From NCBI GenBank assembly GCA_902762655.1, contig CACWOZ010000007.1, positions 1-64,000 on the forward strand: 64,000 nt of DNA, in the 5' to 3' direction. The DNA comes from an uncultured Bacteroidia bacterium (GTDB taxonomy: Bacteria > Bacteroidota > Bacteroidia > Bacteroidales > UBA932). The notes under the pieces are model-generated. The model worked only from the letters and a program-made list of their open reading frames with translations, was not told where the DNA came from and did no database searches. Of the stretch, positions 4,426-54,206 are shown piece after piece. The position numbers and the translations under genes are program-made. The stretch's first letter is position 1, and the number at the start of each line of letters is the position of its first letter.

Positions 4426-5379
4426 ATGAAGAAATATAATGTTACCGGAAAGAAGGACACCCGCAGCGGGTTCGGCGCCGGCCTCGTGATCGCGGGCCGC
4501 GAGAATCCCGAAGTGGTCGCCCTCGCAGCCGACCTCAAGGGCTCCCTCAAGATGGATGCCTTCGCGGCAGAATTCCCCGACAGATTCATCGAATGCGGCA
4601 TCGCCGAGGCCAACATGGTAGGTGTGGCCGCCGGTCTCGCGCTCACCGGAAAGGTGCCTTTCTGCGGTTCTTTCGCAGAGTTCATCACCGGCCGTGTGTA
4701 CGACCAGATCCGCCAGGAAGTTTCCTATGGCAACACCAATGTCAAGCTCGCATCTTCCCACGCGGGAATCACCCTCGGAGAGGATGGCGCCACGCATCAG
4801 ACCATGGAGGATATCGCGCTGATGCGCGCCCTTCCCAATCTGACCGTGATAGTGCCTTGCGACTACAACCAGACCGTGCAGGCCACTATCGCCGCCGCGA
4901 AGCATGTTGGCCCCGTGTATCTGCGCTTCGGCCGTCCGGCCGTCCCCATCTTCACCGATCCGGACGAACCCTTCGAAATCGGCAAAGTGTATAACATGAA
5001 TCCCGGCACCGACGTCACCCTTATCGCAGCCGGCCACACTGTGTGGGAGGCAATCCAGGCCGCCGAGGCCCTGGAGGCAGAGGGAATCAGCGCCGAGGTG
5101 CTGAACGTCGCGACTGTGAAGCCGCTGGATACCGCTACGATCCTGGAGTCGGTCGCCAAGACCGGCGCCGTGGTGGTTGCAGAGGAGCATAACGTTGCCG
5201 GAGGTATCGGAGAGGCTGTGGCCGCCGTGCTCGCCGCCAATGCTCCCGCCCCCATAGAGTTCATCAACGGAGGCGACCGTTTCGGCCAGAGCGGTACTCC
5301 CGCCGAGCTGATGGCTGCCTATGGTCTTGATGCTGCGCACATCGCAGAAGCTGCGAAGAAGGCCATTTCCAGAAAATAA
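4426..5379 (+). CDS. Transketolase, C-terminal subunit
   Basis: A 317-residue partner of the preceding gene, holding the pyrimidine-binding and C-terminal domains. Motifs include DLKGSLKMDAFAAEFPDRFIECGIAEANMVGVAAGLA (about 27-63) with the catalytic-type Glu of GIAEANM, then HAGITLGEDGATHQTMEDIALMR, and VYLRFGRP. The two genes are separated by one base and surely act as one enzyme, converting sugar phosphates in the non-oxidative pentose phosphate pathway. The C-terminal Rossmann-like domain (from about 190) is complete. It is followed after 31 bases by a sigma factor gene that may be cotranscribed. Confidence 0.92.
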   Translation: MKKYNVTGKKDTRSGFGAGLVIAGRENPEVVALAADLKGSLKMDAFAAEFPDRFIECGIAEANMVGVAAGLALTGKVPFCGSFAEFITGRVYDQIRQEVSYGNTNVKLASSHAGITLGEDGATHQTMEDIALMRALPNLTVIVPCDYNQTVQATIAAAKHVGPVYLRFGRPAVPIFTDPDEPFEIGKVYNMNPGTDVTLIAAGHTVWEAIQAAEALEAEGISAEVLNVATVKPLDTATILESVAKTGAVVVAEEHNVAGGIGEAVAAVLAANAPAPIEFINGGDRFGQSGTPAELMAAYGLDAAHIAEAAKKAISRK

Positions 5380-6254: not shown

Positions 6255-6809
6255 ATGAAAAAGATTTTGTTAGCAATATCAGCGCTGTGCATGGTGCTGA
6301 GCCTCGGCGCCCAGCCGCAGAAGCAGTCAGGAAAGGAACAGGGGAAGTCCTTCAAGGAAGGTGTCGAAGACTTCCGCAAGGCTGCAAAGGAACGCCTGCA
6401 GAGTGAGCATGTCGCCTATCTGACCAACGAACTGGAACTCACTCCGGAGGAGGCACAGGCATTCTGGCCTGTTTACAATCAGGCCCAGAAGGAGCAGAAG
6501 GAGAGTTTCGAGAAGATCGGCGCTTCCAAGAAGGCTTTGAAAGATGCTGTAAAGGAGAATAAGGGCGAGAAGGAGATAGAGAAGGCTCTCGCCGAGTACA
6601 ATAAGGCCCGCGCTTCGCAACGCAATGTTTTAGCCGATTATGAGAGAGAATTCGTGAAGGTCATCGGCGTTGTCAAGACTGCCAAGCTCTATCTTGCCGA
6701 AGACAGTTTCCGCACCAGGCAAATCCATCGCCTCGGTGACAGCAAAGGGCCTCGGCCTGTGGTTTCGCGTCCCCAGGGCGGCTCTCGCGAGAAGGGGAGC
6801 CAGAAGTAG
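6255..6809 (+). CDS. Spy/CpxP-like periplasmic protein
   Basis: A 184-residue exported protein with a signal peptide at 1-19 (ILLAISALCMVLSLGAQ). The rest is charged and helical, with LTPEEAQAFWPVYNQAQKEQ at 62-81. That LTxEEA-type segment followed by long helices recalls the Spy/CpxP/heavy-metal-sensor fold, which chaperones or senses misfolded envelope proteins. The C-terminal 30 residues are basic and rich in Gly, Pro and Arg, probably disordered. It closes the sigma-factor operon and is followed by a palindromic repeat that can terminate transcription. Confidence 0.65.
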   Translation: MKKILLAISALCMVLSLGAQPQKQSGKEQGKSFKEGVEDFRKAAKERLQSEHVAYLTNELELTPEEAQAFWPVYNQAQKEQKESFEKIGASKKALKDAVKENKGEKEIEKALAEYNKARASQRNVLADYEREFVKVIGVVKTAKLYLAEDSFRTRQIHRLGDSKGPRPVVSRPQGGSREKGSQK

Positions 6810-6853
6810 TAGCTTTTGCGTGTGTGCCGCAGAAGTCGCTCACTATCAGGGTT

Positions 6854-6931
6854 TTACGCTAAATAGCCTGGTTGAATTCAAACAGGCTATTTTATGTATC
6901 TCACTGTGCTGCAATTACTTACGTGGCACGG
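6854..6931 (+). repeat. RAYT-associated palindromic repeat, copy A (partial)
   Basis: This copy keeps the right-hand two thirds of the element. The central palindrome has arms AAATAGCCTGGTTG (6861-6874) and CAAACAGGCTATTT (6879-6892), with one mismatch. The right flank TATGTATCTCACTGTGCTGCA and the end ACGTGGCACGG follow. The left head beyond TTACGC is absent. It lies between the convergent Spy-like gene and the transposase, and the transposase stop codon (6917-6915) and last codons fall inside it. The A- and T-tracts around the palindrome make it a probable two-way terminator. Confidence 0.8.
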
Positions 6932-7832
6932 GATGCACGGGGCGAGTGGCTGGCACCATGGGCAAATGTAGGAATTTGCGCATTTGGTCGGTTGTCGGGT
7001 TGATTTTAGCATAAAGTATGCTGCTGATCTTCCGTATTTGTTGTGGAGACAGTTTTTCGTAGTTCGGACCTTCGAAACCCATCTGCCGGCTCAATGCCAG
7101 CATCTTCTGATAATTGGAATGATCGCCGTATTCATCTTCCAGTTCGTATTCGTTGCCGGCAATAGTATTGATTGTCTCCAGAGCCTTGTCGAAAGAGCTG
7201 AAAATCTCTATCAAATCTTTGTATGACAGGAAGTTGTACTTGTAGATTATGTAGTCCGTCATCTGTCGTTTCTCTTCAATATCCAAACGTGCGTAGATCC
7301 TTCGCAAGACGGCATATCCCAGATGTTTCCCTTTTGAATAATATAAATCCACGATTTTGAGGGCATCCCTCATAACATGTCGAGACTCTCTTTTGACCAG
7401 TTTCTTTGAAAAAGGATTCGGGTTGTTATAATATGCGAGGAGAGTCCACATGTTGTCTGCAGCCTTTTTGCACATCTTGCCTGCAACTGGGTTATTGGCA
7501 TTGTATGCAATGGCGGAAATGATATTCTTGACACCTCTTTTGTCAGATTCTCCATAAGGGCTTTTGAAAACAGGCCCGGTCCGTTCGTATTCTGCATTGT
7601 ATTCGTGTGCAAAAATACTACCCAAGCGGTGTTGAAATCTGCTGAGTCTGCCATCAATAATGCTTTTTAGAAGGGAGTGGGTGTGATTGAACATAATGGA
7701 AAAGGCCAGTACGCACAAGTTCATCTGTCTCACCAGCACACTGTAGATTGTGAAGTACACCAGGCAATCCTCAATCCTGTAGAAAATGCCCCAGCCGTTC
7801 CGGCCCTTCATGTAAACATGTTTCGCTATCAT
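6915..7832 (-). CDS. REP-associated tyrosine transposase (RAYT/Y1-type)
   Basis: A 305-residue Y1 (HUH) nuclease of the RAYT group. The HUH motif is H50-T-H52 within SIMFNHTHSLL, and the likely catalytic tyrosine is Y110 in SAIAYNANNPVAGKM, the counterpart of the RAYT YIHxNPV block. GPVFKSPYGES (86-96) is the usual conserved link. RAYTs nick and move short palindromic REP elements. Here matching repeats sit at both ends of the gene and once more 2 kb away. I chose ATG 7832 (MIAKHVY) because a GGAGG lies 6-7 bases before it, rare in this phylum; an ATG at 7853 would add seven residues. The long helical C-terminal extension (about 150-300) is not recognised. GC is clearly lower than in the neighbours. 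Confidence 0.8.
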   Translation of the reverse strand: MIAKHVYMKGRNGWGIFYRIEDCLVYFTIYSVLVRQMNLCVLAFSIMFNHTHSLLKSIIDGRLSRFQHRLGSIFAHEYNAEYERTGPVFKSPYGESDKRGVKNIISAIAYNANNPVAGKMCKKAADNMWTLLAYYNNPNPFSKKLVKRESRHVMRDALKIVDLYYSKGKHLGYAVLRRIYARLDIEEKRQMTDYIIYKYNFLSYKDLIEIFSSFDKALETINTIAGNEYELEDEYGDHSNYQKMLALSRQMGFEGPNYEKLSPQQIRKISSILYAKINPTTDQMRKFLHLPMVPATRPVHPVPRK

Positions 7833-7947
7833 CTTTGCCTCCTTTTTTCGCAAATGTGAAAAGAGGAAATGACAATGTCAATAAGATTTCTGCATAGTAA
7901 AAACTTTTTTTAAGTTTCCGATATGGAAACATTTTTATGGCCTTTTT

Positions 7948-8084
7948 GGGCGTGCCAAGCCCTCCCGGATTACGGCGTGCCACGCAACTGTTTACCAGCC
8001 AGCGCATTACGCAAAATAGCCTGGTTGGATTCAACCAGGCTATTTTATGTATCTCGCTGTGCTGCAAGCATTTACGCGGCACGG
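7948..8084 (+). repeat. RAYT-associated palindromic repeat, copy B (full length)
   Basis: Full element of about 137 bases. It starts GGGCGTGCC, repeats GGCGTGCCACGCAAC (from 7974), and then has the palindrome AAAATAGCCTGGTTG (8013-8027) / CAACCAGGCTATTTT (8032-8046), perfect over 15 base pairs with loop GATT. It ends CTGTGCTGCAAGCATTTACG followed by GCACGG. The outer parts GTGCCACGCAAC and TTTACGCGGCAC are an imperfect inverted pair, so the whole looks like two REP ends facing each other (a REPIN). It lies upstream of the transposase and downstream of the minus-strand phosphopantetheinyl transferase, where it can act as its terminator. A small hairpin GTTTCC/GGAAAC lies just to the left (7914-7930). 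Confidence 0.85.
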
Positions 8085-8107
8085 CACAAATGGCGGCCGG
8101 AGACAGG

Positions 8108-8746
8108 CTACGCTATCCACACGAGCACGTGCCTGTCGAAGGTCATGTACTCGAGGTCGAAGTCCTCTTCGAAGCCGTCTTTGTTGATGAATGTTGCCTC
8201 GAGTTCGCCTTCACCTTTGGGGCGGAAGGAATCTATCTCGATCTGCTCGGCAAAATCTACCTTGTACTGGGACAGTTTCTTGTAGACCGCTTCTTTTGCG
8301 CACCAGTAGATGGCGAGCTGCTCATTGCGGTGATCATCGTCGAGGTCCTCTATCTCCTCTTCCGAAAGGGCTTTCTTTTCCACGGCGGAGAAGTCGCGGT
8401 CCAGACTTTCGCAGTCGATGCCTACGTCGTCCAGGTCGTTGAGTATGACTGCAACGTATTTGTCGGTATGGGTGATGGAGATGTTGGTGGCGTTATTTTC
8501 GATATAAGGTTTGCCGTTGTCGTGATGCGAAAGATAAACTTTCTCCTCGAACATCGCATCGAGAAGTGCGCGGACGGCAAGTTTCTGCTTGCGCAGGGAT
8601 TCACTCTTTATGAAAGAGATTTCTTCCAGTTCGTCGGAAGGGATGGATGAAAGTGCTTTGAGTTCTGCCTCAGTTTCTGTAATATGCCATACTCCGAGAC
8701 GCGAGTGCGCGTCGTCGTCGAGGTCTTTTGTAAGGAATAGTGCCAT
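8108..8746 (-). CDS. 4'-phosphopantetheinyl transferase family protein
   Basis: A 212-residue protein of the Sfp/AcpT superfamily, which attaches the phosphopantetheine arm of CoA to carrier proteins. The motifs are NISITHTDKYVAV (88-100), the metal-binding V-G-I-D111-C-E113, and W148-C-A-K-E-A-V-Y-K-K157. The size fits the Sfp-like branch rather than the short AcpS. The gene stands alone; its target is probably the fatty-acid acyl carrier protein. A TATATTTG box (8771-8764, minus strand) lies 18 bases before the ATG, and the repeat copy B follows its stop. Confidence 0.88.
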   Translation of the reverse strand: MALFLTKDLDDDAHSRLGVWHITETEAELKALSSIPSDELEEISFIKSESLRKQKLAVRALLDAMFEEKVYLSHHDNGKPYIENNATNISITHTDKYVAVILNDLDDVGIDCESLDRDFSAVEKKALSEEEIEDLDDDHRNEQLAIYWCAKEAVYKKLSQYKVDFAEQIEIDSFRPKGEGELEATFINKDGFEEDFDLEYMTFDRHVLVWIA

Positions 8747-8763
8747 AAATATTTATAACGATG

Positions 8764-8771
8764 CAAATATA
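8764..8771 (-). promoter_or_regulatory. -7 box for the phosphopantetheinyl transferase
   Basis: TATATTTG on the minus strand, an exact match to the Bacteroidota TAnnTTTG form. It lies 18 bases before the ATG at 8746. Confidence 0.65.
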
Positions 8772-8809
8772 ATCAATTTTTAGATATTCAAGAAATCAAA
8801 GGAAAATAG

Positions 8810-8817
8810 TATCTTTG
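8810..8817 (+). promoter_or_regulatory. -7 box for mdh
   Basis: TATCTTTG, an exact TAnnTTTG match, 35 bases before the mdh ATG. It diverges from the box at 8771-8764. Confidence 0.65.
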
Positions 8818-8852
8818 TAGTCCGTTTCAAAAGACTATACTTTTAAGTTATC

Positions 8853-9839
8853 ATGAAATATCTAACTAACGAAAAATTGGTCATCGTAGGTGCAGGTGGA
8901 ATGATCGGCTCCAACATGGCCCAGTCCGTGCTGATGCTCGGCCTTACCCCCAACGTATGTCTTTACGATATCTATGAACCCGGCCTGAAGGGTGTTCTCG
9001 GAGAGATCGACCACTGCGCTTTCGAAGGTGCCAACGTCACAGCCACCATCGACCCTGCAGAAGCCTTCACCGGCGCCAAGTACATCATCTCTTCCGGCGG
9101 CGCTCCCCGCAAGGAGGGCATGACCCGCGAAGACCTCCTTAAGGGCAATTGCCAGATAGCAGCCGAGTTCGGCGACAATATCAAGAAGTACTGCCCTGAT
9201 GTGAAGCACGTTGTGGTTATCTTCAACCCCGCCGACGTCACCGCTCTCACCGCCCTCATCCATTCCGGCCTGAAGCCCGAGCAGCTCACCAGCCTCGCAG
9301 CCCTCGACAGCACCCGCCTGCAGGAAGCCCTCGCTCAGGAATTCGGTGTACAGCAGTGCAAAGTCACCGGCGCCCACACTTACGGCGGACACGGTGAGGC
9401 AATGGCGGTATTCGCTTCCCAGGTCAAGATCGACGGCAAGCCCCTCGCAGAATGCGGCCTCAGCGCCGAGAAGTGGGCAGATATCAAACTCCGCACCGTA
9501 CAGGGCGGCAGCAACATCATCAAACTCCGCGGCCGCAGCTCCTTCCAGAGCCCTGCATATCAGGCAGTCAAGATGATCGAGGCAGCCATGGGCGGCGACA
9601 AGTTCACCTGGCCTGCAGGATGCTATGTGAACAACGCCGTGTTCCAGAATGTGATGATGGCCATGCCTACCACCATCGACAAGAACGGCGTCCACTTCAC
9701 CGCTCCCAAGGGAACAGCAGAAGAGATGTCCGACCTCAAGAAGAGTTACGAGCACCTCTGCAAGATGCGCGACGAGATCGTTTCCCTCGGCATCGTTCCT
9801 CCGGTAGAGGAGTGGAAGAGCATGAATCCCAACCTGTAG
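8853..9839 (+). CDS. mdh: Malate dehydrogenase (NAD-dependent, LDH/MDH family)
   Basis: A 328-residue NAD-dependent dehydrogenase that interconverts malate and oxaloacetate in the reductive branch of the TCA cycle used for succinate formation. The Rossmann motif is VIVGAGGMIGSNMA (10-23), and D39 after the second strand (VCLYDIYEP) binds the NAD ribose. The conserved stretch SSGGAPRKEGMTREDLL carries the substrate arginine, IFNPADV is the NAD loop, and the catalytic histidine lies in GAHTYGGHGEAM. This longer version with G-G-H-G-E is typical of Bacteroidota malate dehydrogenases. It has its own promoter and is followed by repeat copy C. Confidence 0.9.
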   Translation: MKYLTNEKLVIVGAGGMIGSNMAQSVLMLGLTPNVCLYDIYEPGLKGVLGEIDHCAFEGANVTATIDPAEAFTGAKYIISSGGAPRKEGMTREDLLKGNCQIAAEFGDNIKKYCPDVKHVVVIFNPADVTALTALIHSGLKPEQLTSLAALDSTRLQEALAQEFGVQQCKVTGAHTYGGHGEAMAVFASQVKIDGKPLAECGLSAEKWADIKLRTVQGGSNIIKLRGRSSFQSPAYQAVKMIEAAMGGDKFTWPAGCYVNNAVFQNVMMAMPTTIDKNGVHFTAPKGTAEEMSDLKKSYEHLCKMRDEIVSLGIVPPVEEWKSMNPNL

Positions 9840-9891
9840 TCGCCGGCATCCGTGCTACCGGGCATTCGCCCCGTACCGTCGGTCGTTTGCC

Positions 9892-10023
9892 CCGTGCTAC
9901 GTAAGTGCCTGCAGCACAGTAAGATACATAAAATAGCCTGGTTGAATCCAACCAGGCTATTTTGCGTAATGCGCTGGCGGGCAAATAGTTGCGTGGCACG
10001 CCGTAATCCGTAAGGGCGTGCCA
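9892..10023 (-). repeat. RAYT-associated palindromic repeat, copy C (inverted, full length)
   Basis: The reverse complement of this stretch matches copy B almost base for base over about 130 bases, from the GGCGTGCCACGCAAC head through the palindrome to TTACGTAGCACGG. The palindrome here is AAAATAGCCTGGTTG (9930-9944) and CAACCAGGCTATTTT (9949-9963), with loop AATC. It lies 53 bases after mdh and before the GH2 promoter, so it can terminate mdh transcription. Changes between copies fall mostly outside the palindrome. Confidence 0.85.
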
Positions 10024-10073
10024 CACCGCGATGCAGGAGGGGTCAGGCAGCCCTACAAATCCACCTTTTTTAC

Positions 10074-10081
10074 TATATTTG
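10074..10081 (+). promoter_or_regulatory. -7 box for the GH2 gene
   Basis: TATATTTG, an exact TAnnTTTG match, 30 bases before the ATG at 10112. Confidence 0.65.
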
Positions 10082-10111
10082 TAGAACATCACTAAAAACT
10101 ATCTAGCCCAG

Positions 10112-12802
10112 ATGAAACGTCTTGCATTTCTCCTGCTTTTCGCGCCGGCACTCCTGAACGCTGCGATATCTCCAAATCTTGCCCGGGGCAAGGATCATAT
10201 CTTCTTCGATTCTGCCGCTGGCAGCCAGTGGAAGATGTGCCGCATCGATCAGGCGGGGCAGGGGGAGAAAATCTCGCAGCCAGGATTCGACGATGCGAAC
10301 TGGATGAATGCGAGGGTGCCGGCCACTGTGCTCACCAATCTCGTTGAGAACGGCATCCTCCCCGATCCTTATTTCTCAGACAACAACCGCCTCACCAAGG
10401 GCCTCATCCCGGATATCAACGAAGTGGGCCGCGGCTACTACACCTACTGGTTCCGTACGGAGTTCGATATCCCTGCGTCCTATGCGGGAAAGAAGGTCTG
10501 GCTGCATCCGGAGGGCATTAACTACCGGGCGGAGTTCTGGGTGAACGGGCATCTGTTCAGCACCCTCACCGGCATGTTCCGGGACGACGACATCGACATT
10601 ACCGAATTCGCGAACATCGGCGGCCGCAATGCGCTGGCGGTGCTGGTGTATCCGGTGGATTTCCCCGGCAGGCCGGGAAAGAAGACCTGGGGCGCGCCCG
10701 GCGAATATAATAACGGCGGCGACGGCAATATCGGCCTGAATTCCACGATGCTGATGAGCGTGGGGTGGGATTTCACTTTCTGGGATGCCATCCGCGACCG
10801 CAACACCGGCATCTGGCGCAGTATCTCTCTTTATTCGACCGGCGCCATGACAGTGCGCCATCCCTTCGTGCGCTCGGAACTCGCTCATCCTCACTACGAT
10901 GCGGCGGACCTGACCGTGAGCGTGGAGGTGGGCAGCCGCTATGTGGACAGCCCGAAGACGCATAAGGCGCGCGTGGTGGGGGAGATCACCGGGCCCGGCC
11001 TGAGCGCTGCAAGGGTCTTCGAGAAGGAGGTCGATCTCTATCGCGAAGAGGTACAGGAGGTGACCTTCGCTGCGAAGGAGTTCAAACGCCTGCATATAGA
11101 CGAACCGGCCCTCTGGTGGCCTCTGGGCAAGGGGGACCAGCCTCTGTATAACTTGAAAATCTCTGTCTACGACGACGGTGTGCTGAGTGATGAGACGCAG
11201 ACGCGTTTCGGCATCCGGGAGGTGGTGGCCAGCAGGAGCACGCCGGACGAGAGCAAACTCTTCGTTGTGAACGGCAAGCCCATCTTCGTGCGCGGCAGCA
11301 ACTGGATTCCGGAGGCGATGCTGAAGGATAGCGACAAGCGCATGGCGGCGGTGCTTCGCCTAAGCGCGCAGTGCGGATTCAATCTCCTGCGCCTATGGGG
11401 CGGTGGAATCGTGGAGAGCGACTACTTCCATCAACTCTGCGATGAATACGGATTCATGGTGTGGGAGGAGTTTTTCATGACGGGGGATACCCGGCATCCG
11501 CACGACGTGGCGACCTACTTCGCGAATGTCGAATCTTCCGTGAAGAGGGTGCGCAACCACCCGTGCGTGGTGTTCTATGTGGCCTCGAACGAGAGCACCG
11601 AGGTGAGCGGCACGCGCGAACTGATAGAAAAACTCGACGGCACGCGCCCCTGGCAGCAGCAGAGTGAATGCGACGGCATCCATGATGGCAGCCCCTATGT
11701 GCAGGTGAACCCCATGCTGCACTATCTCGACCAGGCTTCCCCGCGCGGCAGCCGTGTGAACGGATTCAATCCGGAGTACGGATTCACAGGCATGCCCCAC
11801 TACACCTCGCTGCAGAGGTTCCTGCGTCCGGAGGAGATCTGGCCTATGGATAAGGGCGTGTGGGATTATCTGGACGGCAGTGGCTTCGGTAAGGTGACTA
11901 CCACTGTGAAGGCGCTGGCGGATAATTACGGCGAGTCGCACTCGATCAAGGAATACGGATGGAAGACGCAGTTGCTGAGCGCGATGAATTCGAAGGCTAT
12001 ATGGGACGTGTGGAATTACAATAAATTATGGTACGGCGACCGCTACTGTACAGGCACTCTGTTCTGGAGCCACGCGAGCCCTATCCCCATGATAAAGAAT
12101 CACATGTGGGACTGGTATCTGATTCCGACGGCATCACTGTATCATACCATGCATGCGCTGGAGCCGGTGCATGTGCAATTCGATTATCTGAAGAATACCG
12201 TTTCGGTGTATAACGACAGGCTGAACGGCCTTTCGAACCTGACGGTCGTGGCGCGCCTGTACGATCTTTCCAGCAAGAAGCTCGCGACTTGGACGGTGCA
12301 CGGAGTGAATGTGGTAGCGGACGGAGTTGCCTGCGACGTGATGAGGCTGTCGTTTCCGGAAAAGATAACTCCCGTGCATTTCATCGCGCTCGAGTTAAGG
12401 GATGCGAAGGGCAAGGTATTATCAAAGAATTTCTACTGGAGGTCGACTGCGAAGTATGTCGAAGGGACGCTGACGGGCCCTTGCGCTTCGGGCTTCGAGA
12501 GTCTGGCTTCGATGCCAAAGGCTTCTGTCAAGGCGTCCTTGGTCAAGCGTTCTGCCGACGGTGTGCTCTATTATGATGTTACCCTGAAGAATGGAGGCTC
12601 GAAGATTGCGTTCTTCAATGAGGTGCTGCTCCTGGGCGACGACGGCCTGCCGGTGCCCTATACCTTTACTTCTGACAACTATTTTACGCTGCTACCTGGT
12701 GAGTCACAGATGGTTACGATGGAGATTGCCCGCGAGGACGCTCCTTCGAAGCCGGTGGTTCATGTTGAGGGATGGAATGTGGCGGAGAAGATTCTTCGCT
12801 AG
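10112..12802 (+). CDS. Secreted GH2 glycoside hydrolase, exo-beta-glucosaminidase/mannosidase-like
   Basis: An 896-residue exported enzyme with a signal peptide at 1-17 (RLAFLLLFAPALLNAA). The fold order is a jelly-roll sugar-binding domain (about 60-230, with WFRTEFDIP and AEFWVNGH), an Ig-like domain, and a TIM barrel from about 375 (FVRGSNWIPEAML, LLRLWGGGIVESDYFHQLCDEYGF). The catalytic acid/base is E494 in YVASNEST, the NE pair of clan GH-A; E555 in GFNPEYGFTG is the probable nucleophile. C-terminal beta domains follow. The layout is that of CsxA-like exo-beta-D-glucosaminidases and related beta-mannosidases; which sugar it releases is not settled. It stands alone with its own promoter, and its end overlaps the convergent methyltransferase gene by four bases. 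Confidence 0.85.
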   Translation: MKRLAFLLLFAPALLNAAISPNLARGKDHIFFDSAAGSQWKMCRIDQAGQGEKISQPGFDDANWMNARVPATVLTNLVENGILPDPYFSDNNRLTKGLIPDINEVGRGYYTYWFRTEFDIPASYAGKKVWLHPEGINYRAEFWVNGHLFSTLTGMFRDDDIDITEFANIGGRNALAVLVYPVDFPGRPGKKTWGAPGEYNNGGDGNIGLNSTMLMSVGWDFTFWDAIRDRNTGIWRSISLYSTGAMTVRHPFVRSELAHPHYDAADLTVSVEVGSRYVDSPKTHKARVVGEITGPGLSAARVFEKEVDLYREEVQEVTFAAKEFKRLHIDEPALWWPLGKGDQPLYNLKISVYDDGVLSDETQTRFGIREVVASRSTPDESKLFVVNGKPIFVRGSNWIPEAMLKDSDKRMAAVLRLSAQCGFNLLRLWGGGIVESDYFHQLCDEYGFMVWEEFFMTGDTRHPHDVATYFANVESSVKRVRNHPCVVFYVASNESTEVSGTRELIEKLDGTRPWQQQSECDGIHDGSPYVQVNPMLHYLDQASPRGSRVNGFNPEYGFTGMPHYTSLQRFLRPEEIWPMDKGVWDYLDGSGFGKVTTTVKALADNYGESHSIKEYGWKTQLLSAMNSKAIWDVWNYNKLWYGDRYCTGTLFWSHASPIPMIKNHMWDWYLIPTASLYHTMHALEPVHVQFDYLKNTVSVYNDRLNGLSNLTVVARLYDLSSKKLATWTVHGVNVVADGVACDVMRLSFPEKITPVHFIALELRDAKGKVLSKNFYWRSTAKYVEGTLTGPCASGFESLASMPKASVKASLVKRSADGVLYYDVTLKNGGSKIAFFNEVLLLGDDGLPVPYTFTSDNYFTLLPGESQMVTMEIAREDAPSKPVVHVEGWNVAEKILR

Positions 12803-50781: not shown

Positions 50782-52773
50782 ATGAAAAGATTTTTCTGTA
50801 TTCTGATGCTGGCCGCCATGTTCGCGGCCTGCGGCAAGGAAAAGAATCCCGGAGAGCCGGCGTTCGAACGCCCTTCCTATGCTTCCGGGCAGAAGCAGGG
50901 GAACATCACCTACCAGCTGCTTATCTATAGTTTTGCTGACAGCGACGGAGACGGCATAGGAGACTTCAACGGCATTAAGTCGAAACTGGACTATCTCGAT
51001 GCCCTCGGAGTATCTGCGCTGTGGCTTTCCCCGGCCCACCCTGCAGATTCCTACCATGGTTACGACGTGCAGGATTACTCCAAGGTCAATCCCAAGTACG
51101 GCACCGAGGCAGATTTCAAGGCCCTTATCGATGCTGCTCATGCTAAAGGCATCAAAATCTACATGGACTATGTACTGAACCACACCGGCAAAGGGAATGT
51201 CTGGTTCGCTGAGGCCAAGAAAGGCCCCGCATCCGACAAATTCGGCTGGTTCCACATCTCCTCCAACCCTTCCGCAGACATAGCGGCAGGCAAGTTCCCC
51301 ATGCTGACATCCTACAATTCCGGTGAGTGGCACGACGTGACAGTGGGGGAGATAGGTTATACCGGCCGGCTCCATTTCAAGGTAGATTTTTCCGGAACCC
51401 CCAGGACCATGACCGTGACCGCCGCCGACGGGGCCGCCCAGACCTCCAACACTGACACATCGGTAAATATGTTCCTTTGGGTAGGCGAACCTGGGCAGGC
51501 CGTCCGCATGTACAGGACCGGTACGGACATATATGAGATAACTCTCGATGTAGATACTCCATGGGGCGTGCTGGTGCGCACATCAGATACTTCCTGGGAC
51601 GGCGGGACAAAGTGGGGCGCTCCCAAGGGCGCGAACGTGCTGATATTCGGAGAGCCTCTGGCCCTCAGCACCGAAGATGCCCAGGACATCCTTTTCGGAA
51701 GTCCGACCCCGATGAAGTTCCAGGGCGCGTTCGGCAGCTGGATGCCGGACCTCAACTACGGCCCGGTCAGCACCGCATCCTCTTCCGGCGCCTTCCAGGC
51801 CCTGGCGCAGACTGCGGACAAGTGGATGGACATGGGTGTGGACGGATTCCGCCTGGATGCAGTCAAGCACATCTATTCCGCAGAGCGAGGGAACGAGAAT
51901 CCGGAATTCCTGCGCCAGTGGTACGAGCGCTGCAATTCCACCTTCCGCAGGACTCACTCATCCGACCTTTACATGGTTGGAGAAGTATGGATGGGTTCAT
52001 CCGACGTCGCCCCCTACTACAAGGGTCTGCCCGCCTGTTTCGAGTTCGATTTCTGGGAAAGGTTGAAATGGGTGCTCAACCAGCGTACCGGCTGCTACTT
52101 CGTGAAGGACCTGACCGGCTATCGCAAGGCGTATGCTGCCGTCCGTCCGGGTGCTATTGCAGCCACTAAACTCACGAACCACGATGAGACCCGCGCTGCC
52201 TCCATACTCGGGCGCGACCTGGCAAAACTGAAGCAGGCCGCAGCCTTCCTGATGACGGCGGAAGGAGAACCTTATATTTATCAGGGAGAGGAACTTGGAT
52301 ACTGGGGGAAGGACGGCGATGACGGCGGACGCGATGAACTCGTGCGCACTCCTATGGTGTGGGAATCTGCATCCACCGCTGCCACCGGAGACCTCGGCGG
52401 ACATGTCGACATGAGCCTGGTTACGGATGCCATATCCGTAGCCGCACAGGAAAAGGATGAGGAATCGCTCCTGCGCACCTACTACGAATGGACCTACGCA
52501 CGCAATACCTGTTCCGCCCTTGCTTCCGGGAAGATGTCTTCCCACGGCAGATATAACGAAAGCAATACCCTGGATTCGTCTGTTGCAGCCTGGTATATGA
52601 CCGCCCCCGACGGCGCCAAAGCCCTTGTCGTGCACAATGTGGGTGCATCGCCGGTGGATTTGGACCTTGACGGAGACAAGCTTTCCGACATGCTGGTCTC
52701 ACTCGGTTCCGTCTCGGTTTCCGGCACAACGCTCGAACTCGGCGCCAACTCCTCGGCTGTATTCCGGCAGTAG
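50782..52773 (+). CDS. susG: SusG-like outer-membrane alpha-amylase (GH13) with inserted CBM58-like domain
   Basis: A 663-residue lipoprotein with lipobox FAAC (C17). The GH13 barrel begins ITYQLLIYSFADSDGDGIGDFNGIKSKLDYL. Catalytic residues are the nucleophile D359 (GFRLDAVKH), the acid/base E401 (MVGEVWMG) and D468 (TNHDETRA). Between about 175 and 310 a beta-rich domain (LHFKVDFSG, NMFLWVGEPGQ, IYEITLDVDTPWG) interrupts the barrel at the place where SusG carries its CBM58 starch-binding module. It cuts surface-bound starch into oligosaccharides for SusCD. Start is ATG 50782; a TTG at 50776 is less likely. Confidence 0.9.
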   Translation: MKRFFCILMLAAMFAACGKEKNPGEPAFERPSYASGQKQGNITYQLLIYSFADSDGDGIGDFNGIKSKLDYLDALGVSALWLSPAHPADSYHGYDVQDYSKVNPKYGTEADFKALIDAAHAKGIKIYMDYVLNHTGKGNVWFAEAKKGPASDKFGWFHISSNPSADIAAGKFPMLTSYNSGEWHDVTVGEIGYTGRLHFKVDFSGTPRTMTVTAADGAAQTSNTDTSVNMFLWVGEPGQAVRMYRTGTDIYEITLDVDTPWGVLVRTSDTSWDGGTKWGAPKGANVLIFGEPLALSTEDAQDILFGSPTPMKFQGAFGSWMPDLNYGPVSTASSSGAFQALAQTADKWMDMGVDGFRLDAVKHIYSAERGNENPEFLRQWYERCNSTFRRTHSSDLYMVGEVWMGSSDVAPYYKGLPACFEFDFWERLKWVLNQRTGCYFVKDLTGYRKAYAAVRPGAIAATKLTNHDETRAASILGRDLAKLKQAAAFLMTAEGEPYIYQGEELGYWGKDGDDGGRDELVRTPMVWESASTAATGDLGGHVDMSLVTDAISVAAQEKDEESLLRTYYEWTYARNTCSALASGKMSSHGRYNESNTLDSSVAAWYMTAPDGAKALVVHNVGASPVDLDLDGDKLSDMLVSLGSVSVSGTTLELGANSSAVFRQ

Positions 52774-52821
52774 TACCCAGCCGGAGGCCGGGCAGCTAAA
52801 TGGTTGATTAACAGCAAATTG

Positions 52822-52860
52822 CTGAAAACAAATCGGCGAAAAAAGACGATTTGTTTTCAG
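52822..52860. terminator. Perfect 14-base hairpin between the two amylase genes
   Basis: CTGAAAACAAATCG (52822-52835) and CGATTTGTTTTCAG (52847-52860), loop of 11, A-rich. It may reduce readthrough from susG or protect its mRNA end. There is no T-run after the right arm. Confidence 0.55.
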
Positions 52861-52886
52861 GAAAACATTGATATACAATAAGTTAA

Positions 52887-54206
52887 ATGCCCGATATGAA
52901 AAAGATCATTTTCGCCGCAATCGCGGCCGCAGCGCTGAGCGCCTGCTGCAGCGCCCCCGTGAAGAACGTGCATCCGGAGTGGACCTACAATACCGTAGTG
53001 TACGAGGTAAACGTCCGTCAGTTCAGTCCCGAGGGTACATTCAAGGGGGTTGAGGCCCAGCTGCCCCGCCTGAAAGACCTTGGTGTGGATATCCTCTGGC
53101 TCATGCCCATCAACGAAATCGGCACCGAGGGGCGCAAGGGCACCCTCGGCAGTTACTATGCCATCTCCGACTACAAGGCGGTCAATCCGGAATTCGGCAC
53201 CATGCAGGATTTCGAGGACCTGCTTGCCGCCGCTCACGCGCAGGGCTTCCGCGTAATCCTGGACTGGGTGGCTAACCAGACCGCTCCCGACAATGTGTGG
53301 ATGACGGAGAAACCCGCCGGTTTCTATGAGCGCGACTCCCTCGGAAACGCCATCTGGGAGTATGACTGGACCGACACCCGCAGCCTCAATTACGAGAACA
53401 AGGAAGTCTGGTATGCCCAGGAAGATGCCATGCGCTTCTGGCTCGACAAGGGAGTGGACGGATTCCGCTGCGATGCCGCCGGCGAGATGCCCACAGAAAC
53501 ATGGCAGTATCTCGTACCGGCCCTGCGCCGCGCCTATCCCGAAATCTATCTTCTCGCAGAGGCTGAAAAGCCTGAATTTATGGTAGATACAATGTTCGAT
53601 GCCACCTATGCCTGGGAGATGCATCACATCGAGAACGCCATCGGCAACGGACCCGCCAACAAGGACGGCGTGAAGACTGCGGCCGACCTCCGCGAGTATC
53701 TTGCAAAGGACGCGGAGAATACCCCGGCATCCGCTTTCCGTCTGGCCTTCACTTCGAACCATGACGAGAATTCCTGGAACGGCACCGAGTTCGAGCGCCT
53801 CGGAGATGCCTGGCAGGTGATGGAGGTGCTGAACTTCACCCTTCCGAAGACCCAGCCTCTCATCTATACAGGGCAGGAGATCGGCTTGGACCGCAGGCTG
53901 GAATTCTTCGAGAAAGACCCTATAACCGACTGGACTGCAAATGAATATACGGATTTCTACAAATATCTGGTCTCCCTCAGGCACTCTAATCCCGCCCTTG
54001 CCGCAGGTGAACGTGGCGGCTGCGTGAAGTGGATCGAGACCGGCGATCCCGACGTGCTTGCCTTCAGCCGCAAAGTTAAAGGCAACAGGGTTACCGTCTA
54101 TGCCAACCTCAATCCTGAGCCCTCGAAGCCGGTCAAGGCCCTCCGTGGAGTGTGTCCCCCCGACGGAATCCTGCCGCCCTGGGGCTGGAAAGTGCTGACA
54201 AGATAA
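52887..54206 (+). CDS. Second alpha-amylase-family lipoprotein (GH13)
   Basis: A 439-residue enzyme with lipobox LSAC (C20 counted from ATG 52887; ATG 52896 would remove three residues). Barrel motifs: VVYEVNVRQFSPEGTFKGV, ILDWVANQTA, nucleophile D196 (GFRCDAAGE), acid/base E225 (LLAEAEKP), D293 (TSNHDENSW), with a short C-terminal beta domain. It is smaller than the SusG-like enzyme and has no inserted domain, so it probably trims oligosaccharides, perhaps on the periplasmic side, in the role of SusA/SusB; exact product unknown. Confidence 0.85.
   Translation: MPDMKKIIFAAIAAAALSACCSAPVKNVHPEWTYNTVVYEVNVRQFSPEGTFKGVEAQLPRLKDLGVDILWLMPINEIGTEGRKGTLGSYYAISDYKAVNPEFGTMQDFEDLLAAAHAQGFRVILDWVANQTAPDNVWMTEKPAGFYERDSLGNAIWEYDWTDTRSLNYENKEVWYAQEDAMRFWLDKGVDGFRCDAAGEMPTETWQYLVPALRRAYPEIYLLAEAEKPEFMVDTMFDATYAWEMHHIENAIGNGPANKDGVKTAADLREYLAKDAENTPASAFRLAFTSNHDENSWNGTEFERLGDAWQVMEVLNFTLPKTQPLIYTGQEIGLDRRLEFFEKDPITDWTANEYTDFYKYLVSLRHSNPALAAGERGGCVKWIETGDPDVLAFSRKVKGNRVTVYANLNPEPSKPVKALRGVCPPDGILPPWGWKVLTR

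Follow-up and report, generated by a model that had tools for sequence, protein, structure and literature searches.

The stretch of DNA analysed here, referred to below as the window, comprises 64,000 nucleotides (nt) of contig CACWOZ010000007.1 from an uncultured member of the Bacteroidales with relatives in gut and rumen (assembly GCA_902762655.1) and contains a gene for a divergent Y1/HUH protein resembling the RAYT transposases, together with three copies of a composite palindrome. The RAYT-like gene (6915..7853, minus strand) encodes 312 amino acids (aa) from a TTG start at 7853, an ATG at 7832 also being possible. Copy A of the palindrome (6824..6930, plus strand) overlaps the end of this gene; copy B (7976..8083, plus strand) lies on its 5′ side, 24 nt beyond the 3′ end of a phosphopantetheinyl transferase-like (PPTase) gene (8108..8746, minus strand; Pfam ACPS); and copy C (9893..10000, minus strand), which is inverted relative to A and B, lies 53 nt beyond the stop codon of a neighbouring gene (8853..9839, plus strand) that is presumably malate dehydrogenase-like (mdh). 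All three copies reported around the Y1/RAYT gene in the original prediction were found again, with the correction that copy A, which had been placed from 6854, begins at about 6824.

Each copy is about 108 base pairs (bp) long and is built in three tiers: the outer arms, a subterminal mini-dyad inside them and, at the centre, a 15-bp stem closed by a loop of 4 nt. The stem is perfect in B (8013..8046) and C (9930..9963), so that the perfect central palindrome described earlier holds for these two copies; in A it contains one mismatch. The outer ends had been described as inverted and the arms are indeed mutually inverted (GTGCCACG.. at one end and ..CGCGGCAC at the other), and the RAYT stop codon (6915-6917), as had also been noticed, sits within the right outer arm of copy A, the left third of which is diverged and still present. 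The match of about 130 bases between B and C proved to be longer, viz. 152 nt at 87% identity (7949-8100 and 9876-10027), i.e. the likeness reaches outside the element. With copy B as query, a search of the own genome recovered copy A at an E value of 8e-24 and copy C at 7e-48, and a chance resemblance of the copies was rejected on the basis of these values, the fold energies relative to shuffled sequences and the flank-match controls given below. A scan of positions 6500-10500 against Rfam detected no known RNA family at E values up to 0.1. Copies B and C, together with about 20 nt of common flank, stand in opposite orientations on either side of the PPTase-mdh pair, and this segment could flip by recombination.

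The window protein carries the residues H57, H59, Y117, N120 and N121. A profile of three proteins of its long type, encoded on contigs C7 (which carries copies A, B and C), C1 and C33 of the own genome (G000; C numbers denote contigs), was searched in 101 genomes, of which 61 (the own included) belong to the same genus. Matches at E values up to 1e-5 were found in 42 genomes, all of them from this genus, and none in the 40 genomes sampled outside it. The best E value was below 1e-50 in 37 of the 42; the remaining five matched weakly and may contain other classes of RAYT. Of nine named homologues, eight belong to uncultured Bacteroidales assemblies, two of these bearing the label rumen or omasum, and the weakest belongs to a Thermoanaerobaculales assembly. 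The set analysed below comprises 77 loci, excluding L057, L058, L063 and L074, which are duplicates, and L056, which is weak; long partial matches at G006:C31, G044:C6:24758 and G009:C44, as well as short matches, also lie outside it. The HxH, Y and NN residues are invariant in all 77 homologues, which thus all possess the HUH motif and the catalytic tyrosine followed by N that are expected of a RAYT; 54 of them contain Y-x-x-N-N-P, and their median length is 310 aa. A structure model of the window protein was of moderate quality (pLDDT 64.7), and the top Foldseek matches to it were the TnpA proteins of IS608, ISDra2 and IS200, with the Escherichia coli TnpA-REP (4ER8) at rank 31; the E values of 0.03-0.3 were weak, with no value under 0.001, and proteins of unrelated fold were scattered among the matches. 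At the locus whose RAYT is nearest to that of the window (L048, 64% identity), a tandem repeat array follows the RAYT gene (4900-5235).

Related repeats are present on both sides of most of these genes. At 44 of the 74 loci having both flanks, the own 5′ flank was the unique best match of the 3′ flank, compared with 3/71 when the 3′ side was shifted by 600 nt and 2/28 at mdh loci. A match between the two flanks exceeding 36 bits was observed at 54 of the 74 loci (controls: 3/71 shifted and 0/28 mdh), and dispersal was seen in the four families of the long RAYT type that were examined for it, one of them in genomes G037 and G038, so that cognate palindromes which both flank the gene and are dispersed elsewhere, another property expected of RAYTs, are found here. 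The 3′ regions also fold more stably than shuffled sequences, with a median z of -3.8 and z below -2 in 53/77, as against only 4/76 and 5/77 of the control stretches.

In the own genome, the Pfam Y1 model detected seven genes at E values up to 1, two of them above its cut-off, and in the stretches inspected all seven have repeats on both sides that differ from gene to gene. Three of these genes are of the long type (C7, C1 and C33), the C1 and C33 proteins being 46% and 30% identical to the window protein. The family of the window RAYT occupies eight places, viz. A, B and C on C7, two on C11, one each on C6 and C8, and a half-copy on C9 (L041, G000:C9:14622-14674), in which one outer arm and the mini-dyad are followed by unrelated sequence; a 27-nt match at C4:47869 (E 0.96) was dropped from this count. 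The finding of only three copies in the genome, which had been named as one that would speak against the original prediction, was therefore not made. The C1-RAYT family has 12 places and the C33-RAYT family four, and the place lists of the three families do not overlap at all. Standard pairs make up 92-95% of the cells in the consensus structure of each family's alignment; for the C7 family the value is 93% at a median identity of 68%. The copies C11a and C11b, which are 2.9 kb apart, share 97% identity across 119 nt and appear from this to be a recent near-identical pair.

One of the places of the C1 family is a solo copy in the window (52788..52893, plus strand), the cognate RAYT of which is at G000:C1:27.7-28.7 kb. 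This copy lies about 45 kb from the window RAYT, between tandem open reading frames (ORFs), the first of which ends at 52773 while the next begins at 52887 or 52896. The four other Y1 genes (L018, L020, L021 and L024, on C2, C20, C6 and C5) are accompanied by a second repeat type, consisting of hairpins of about 30-40 nt that are often in tandem with a period of 51-52 nt and contain A and T tracts on their inner side, the sequence of the stem being specific to each gene; the type belonging to the C2 gene was found also at C1:226107, C12:39202 and C13:8444. The solo C7-family copy on C8 (L039, G000:C8:2125-2234) is located at a junction beside a gene adjacent to a presumed asd gene, and the adjacent gene is turned round in several relatives, as judged from match coordinates. 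No empty site for this copy was obtained in relatives, where the gene order differs.

The common features of the elements were examined in 26 of the 77 loci, which were aligned on the element centre and picked by the palindrome score at positions 3-23, so that pairing in this range was selected for and only the pairing and bases outside it are independent of the choice. A logo of the 77 loci anchored on the stop codon was uninformative, since the distance from element to stop varies. In the 26 elements, positions 4-16 from the centre are paired in 77-100% (partly by selection) with a sequence that varies among loci, A/T occurs at 15-17 (81% at 16), T/A at position 22 (81/92%), T at 37 on the left side (88%) and AA/TT at 43-44 (96/80% and 76/76%). 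The outer arm at 47-53, beyond the selected range, is paired in 60-88% and is again variable in sequence. In 8/26 the stop codon of the RAYT gene coincides with the conserved TAA, its end being 41-43 nt from the centre. The constant skeleton thus consists of a TAA just within the outer arm, a TGA..TCA mini-dyad, a TTA and an A/T tract, and the outer arms and central stem are the variable, self-complementary parts. This skeleton was seen in the 26 best-formed elements and also in 28 copies, chosen by a pattern fixing the first five stem positions, from G037, G038, G019 and G005, four genomes selected because their RAYTs are 62-81% identical to each other. The borders of the 28 copies are sharp, with ends of about GTGACAGCTAA and TTAGCTGTCAC, and likeness drops just outside them. 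Two inverted units that form one long hairpin and are dispersed as a unit, as in a REPIN, are therefore present, the unit itself not being a GTAG-type repetitive extragenic palindrome (REP). The GTAG or GTGG foot 5′ of the palindrome that marks REPs was not found as a general feature: a GTAG-type foot occurs in 6/28 of these copies, and the exception is the C33 family, where GTGG is present in 4/4 copies, within the outer arm.

The element families change with the RAYT to which they belong. Of the 2926 pairs of loci compared, 2815 have RAYTs less than 50% identical, and in none of these did the 3′ elements match each other above 40 bits on either strand; such a match was seen in 9 of the other 111 pairs, at or above 50%. 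For 3′ against 5′ flanks the corresponding numbers were 6/2815 and 19/111. Divergence of the elements thus almost keeps pace with that of the enzymes. When 71 genomes of the genus were sampled, the C1 family was detected in the own genome only, and the C7 family likewise, save for single weak matches in G011 and G023. A match of 85 bits connects the 3′ element of the C33 RAYT (L047) with the 5′ flank of L105 (G044:C4), the two RAYTs being 37% identical; this flank may contain a solo copy from a C33-like family in G044.

Larger families were found when an element of G037 was used as query in 12 chosen genomes (E up to 0.01). At least 45 places were identified in G037 and at least 46 in G038, with three matches in G019 and one in G005; many of the matches in G037 and G038 extend little past the stem. 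The same element had no place in any of the eight relatives examined that are without a long-type RAYT, so that an abundance of the repeat in such relatives, the other observation that had been named as contrary to a RAYT-REPIN system, was not encountered. Evidence for insertion comes from the 3′ end of mdh, where the window has copy C. At this position G019 holds, between convergent genes, an element of the family of its own RAYT, while the corresponding gene pair of G034, with 80% tblastx identity in the downstream gene, has no element. In G033 and G017 (L158 and L161) another type of element-like palindrome, with the ends GGAGACA and TGTCTCC, was noted here by eye. In all, 29 mdh loci of relatives were examined by tblastn, 26 of them with the PPTase gene in the fetched stretch. 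Neither the RAYT nor the gene at 10112 was found in these 29 stretches; the site in the window is therefore not shared, and its exact empty counterpart was not obtained among them.

The elements are placed preferentially beyond genes. Of 50 copies, eight (including B) had no usable gap, and 29 of the other 42 have the 3′ end of a gene no more than 40 nt away, genes being taken here as greedily chosen long ORFs that were not curated. Convergent gaps contain 17/42 copies compared with 3/33 other gaps (Fisher p=0.003), and 13/35 when the RAYT-adjacent copies are omitted (p=0.009); some of the G037 and G038 copies are perhaps orthologous rather than independent. This placement, together with the stable folds and the A/T tract that most of the 26 elements aligned on their centre have at the base of the stem, would be in keeping with the palindromes being a regulatory or terminator RNA element of host genes that is bound by a domesticated RAYT and has ceased to spread. 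However, the family sequence turns over almost wholly with the RAYT, the recent pair C11a/C11b and the empty site in G034 point to mobility, and a terminator scan gave no more sites than shuffled sequences (4 versus 3.9 expected), only the stem of copy C passing. We thus regard this explanation as unlikely, although a role in host RNA and mobility are not mutually exclusive. The stem of the C33 family is without a T tract and the polarity at L119 is opposite. Termination is possible, judging from sequence, for elements with a T tract such as copy C, and two-way termination as a property of the whole family is unproven; of the earlier proposal that the elements are mobile two-way terminators past gene ends, the placement at gene ends is hence borne out and the termination is not.

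It may also be asked whether the RAYT gene and its two palindromes move together as an autonomous unit resembling an insertion sequence (IS) or a TIRtron, the solo copies being remnants or miniature inverted-repeat transposable elements (MITEs). The elements do flank many of the genes, often in inverted orientation, and can overlap the stop codon, and TIRYT genes with terminal inverted repeats (TIRs), in some cases doubly palindromic, are described in PMC3733652. However, the 59 within-genome RAYT pairs among the analysed loci have a median identity of 41% and a maximum of 79%, i.e. no near-identical pair exists as against at least 45 element places, and an IS-type unit was rejected on this ground. 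Because of this ceiling, RAYTs appear to remain single-copy and not to spread as units. Additionally, the 5′ element can sit past a neighbouring gene, as at the C1 RAYT, where it is about 1.2 kb upstream, and the TIRYT motif GGGGWSAS was detected in just 4/77 regions. Movement as such a unit is accordingly quite improbable. Lastly, that the palindromes are MITEs which some unrelated transposase moves and which often happen to insert beside RAYT genes is hardly credible in spite of their short terminal inverted repeats, length of about 108 bp and non-coding nature, as the family follows the adjoining RAYT rather than the genome (the three RAYTs of one genome each have a family of their own, and no place is common to them) and both flanks of a RAYT tend to hold the same family.

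The results taken together indicate that these are very probably REPIN-like elements moved by a cognate RAYT, in a partnership like that of RAYTs and REPINs, and the prediction of such a system in a Bacteroidales genome is well supported, neither of the contrary findings named with it having been obtained. In such a system, a single-copy HUH/tyrosine endonuclease would recognise two inverted half-units of about 50 nt as single-stranded hairpins, these two half-units making up the non-autonomous element of about 108 bp, which the RAYT would move or copy in trans to new intergenic places with a preference for gene 3′ ends; movement of this kind has been proposed for REPINs. Specificity would most naturally reside in the variable arm and stem, and the fixed frame would serve catalysis; turnover of the variable parts with the RAYT would give each enzyme a private element family and a genome several pairs.

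A number of observations weigh against this interpretation or qualify it. The own 5′ flank was not the unique best match at 30/74 loci, some of which were beaten by an orthologous locus while others had no detectable elements, and 20/74 loci had no flank match above 36 bits; no C7-type element was detected at L048 in the flank comparison, in spite of its RAYT being the nearest to that of the window. The window protein falls below curated cut-offs (15.5 bits versus 23 for Pfam Y1_Tnp; 20 versus 80 for NCBIfam REP_Tyr_transpos) and is therefore called RAYT-like; the C33 protein, of the same long type, clears the Pfam Y1_Tnp cut-off with 26.6 bits, and the curated models thus rate a part of this branch, the window and C1 proteins, under their cut-offs. 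A GTAG-type foot was seen in 0/12 copies of the C1 family and 1/8 of the C7 family, and near the stop codon in 22/77 loci versus 23/76 controls. The families in the own genome are mostly old, with median identities of 62-69%. The six matches between 3′ and 5′ flanks at RAYT identities below 50% run counter to strict privacy; solo copies of other families within the 1.5-kb flank may account for them. Dependence on the enzyme is not proved by the eight RAYT-less controls, since families are missing beside other RAYTs as well: the C7 and C1 families are absent also from relatives having other long-type RAYTs, of which there are many among the 71 genomes, and their absence therefore shows privacy more than enzyme dependence. 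Furthermore, the empty and occupied sites of G034 and G019 are from diverged species, so that they do not define the insertion to the exact base, and a target duplication was not observed.

A broader proposal, which we put forward tentatively, is that the genus possesses a modular code for single-strand transposition, in which a single protein scaffold would read a fixed frame (TAA, TGA..TCA, TTA and A/T tract) together with two swappable, self-complementary address segments, the outer arm and the central stem. Address and enzyme would change together and rapidly, leaving almost no likeness between elements below about 50% RAYT identity, and there might be dozens of orthogonal pairs, seven or more of them in G044, with insertion at gene 3′ ends. 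With 77 related loci, a skeleton common to the better-formed elements, and stems and ends that vary with the enzyme, specificity can be tested by swaps and covariation, and the many natural enzyme-target pairs are suited for learning how such enzymes choose DNA. The families of medium size (at least 45 places) and the empty site provide material for dating movement.

RAYT or TnpA-REP proteins with REPINs or bacterial interspersed mosaic elements (BIMEs) are known from E. coli and Pseudomonas (PMC3116915; PMC8266576), and RAYTs with private REPs, REPtrons and REPINs have been described (PMC3116915; PMC8266576; PMC6006769). The system reported here resembles them in having a single-copy Y1/HUH protein with private palindromes both near its gene and in intergenic places, and two inverted units that form one long hairpin (PMC3116915; PMC8266576). 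In contrast to them, the window-type elements are without a general GTAG foot and have a three-tier structure of about 108 bp with a long central stem, the protein is about 310 aa long, and the copy number, unlike that in E. coli and Pseudomonas, is low to medium. For the Bacteroidetes genes of TnpA-Y1 subclass 2.6 (RAYT group 5), 'atypical secondary structures' in the flanks with copies elsewhere have been reported (PMC6006769; Quentin et al., 2018), and the phylum is therefore not new for RAYTs. These genes share with ours the Bacteroidetes host and flanking structures repeated elsewhere, while subclass 2.4 (group 4) has YIxNNP, similar to the Y-x-x-N-N-P of 54/77 homologues here (PMC6006769). 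However, the median lengths in subclasses 2.6 and 2.4 are 179 and 194 aa as against 310, in a comparison by motif and length only. The TIRYTs and TIRtrons, Y1 genes with long, sometimes double-palindromic TIRs (PMC3733652), are similar in having inverted, partly self-complementary repeats in moderate families; the GGGGWSAS motif found in the flanking repeats of most, though not all, TIRYTs (PMC3733652) is limited here to the 4/77 regions noted above, and our elements have a different common skeleton.

A Bacteroidales RAYT with three-tier palindromes was not found described in the open-licence literature searched. The choice of REP by a RAYT has been worked out for few enzymes, with three models (PMC8266576), and what holds a RAYT and its REPIN together is named as an open question in PMC3116915. 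To these known systems the present work adds an element that has three tiers and a fixed frame but no general GTAG foot, a turnover of enzyme and element nearly in step across 77 loci, several pairs coexisting in one genome, and placement at gene 3′ ends.

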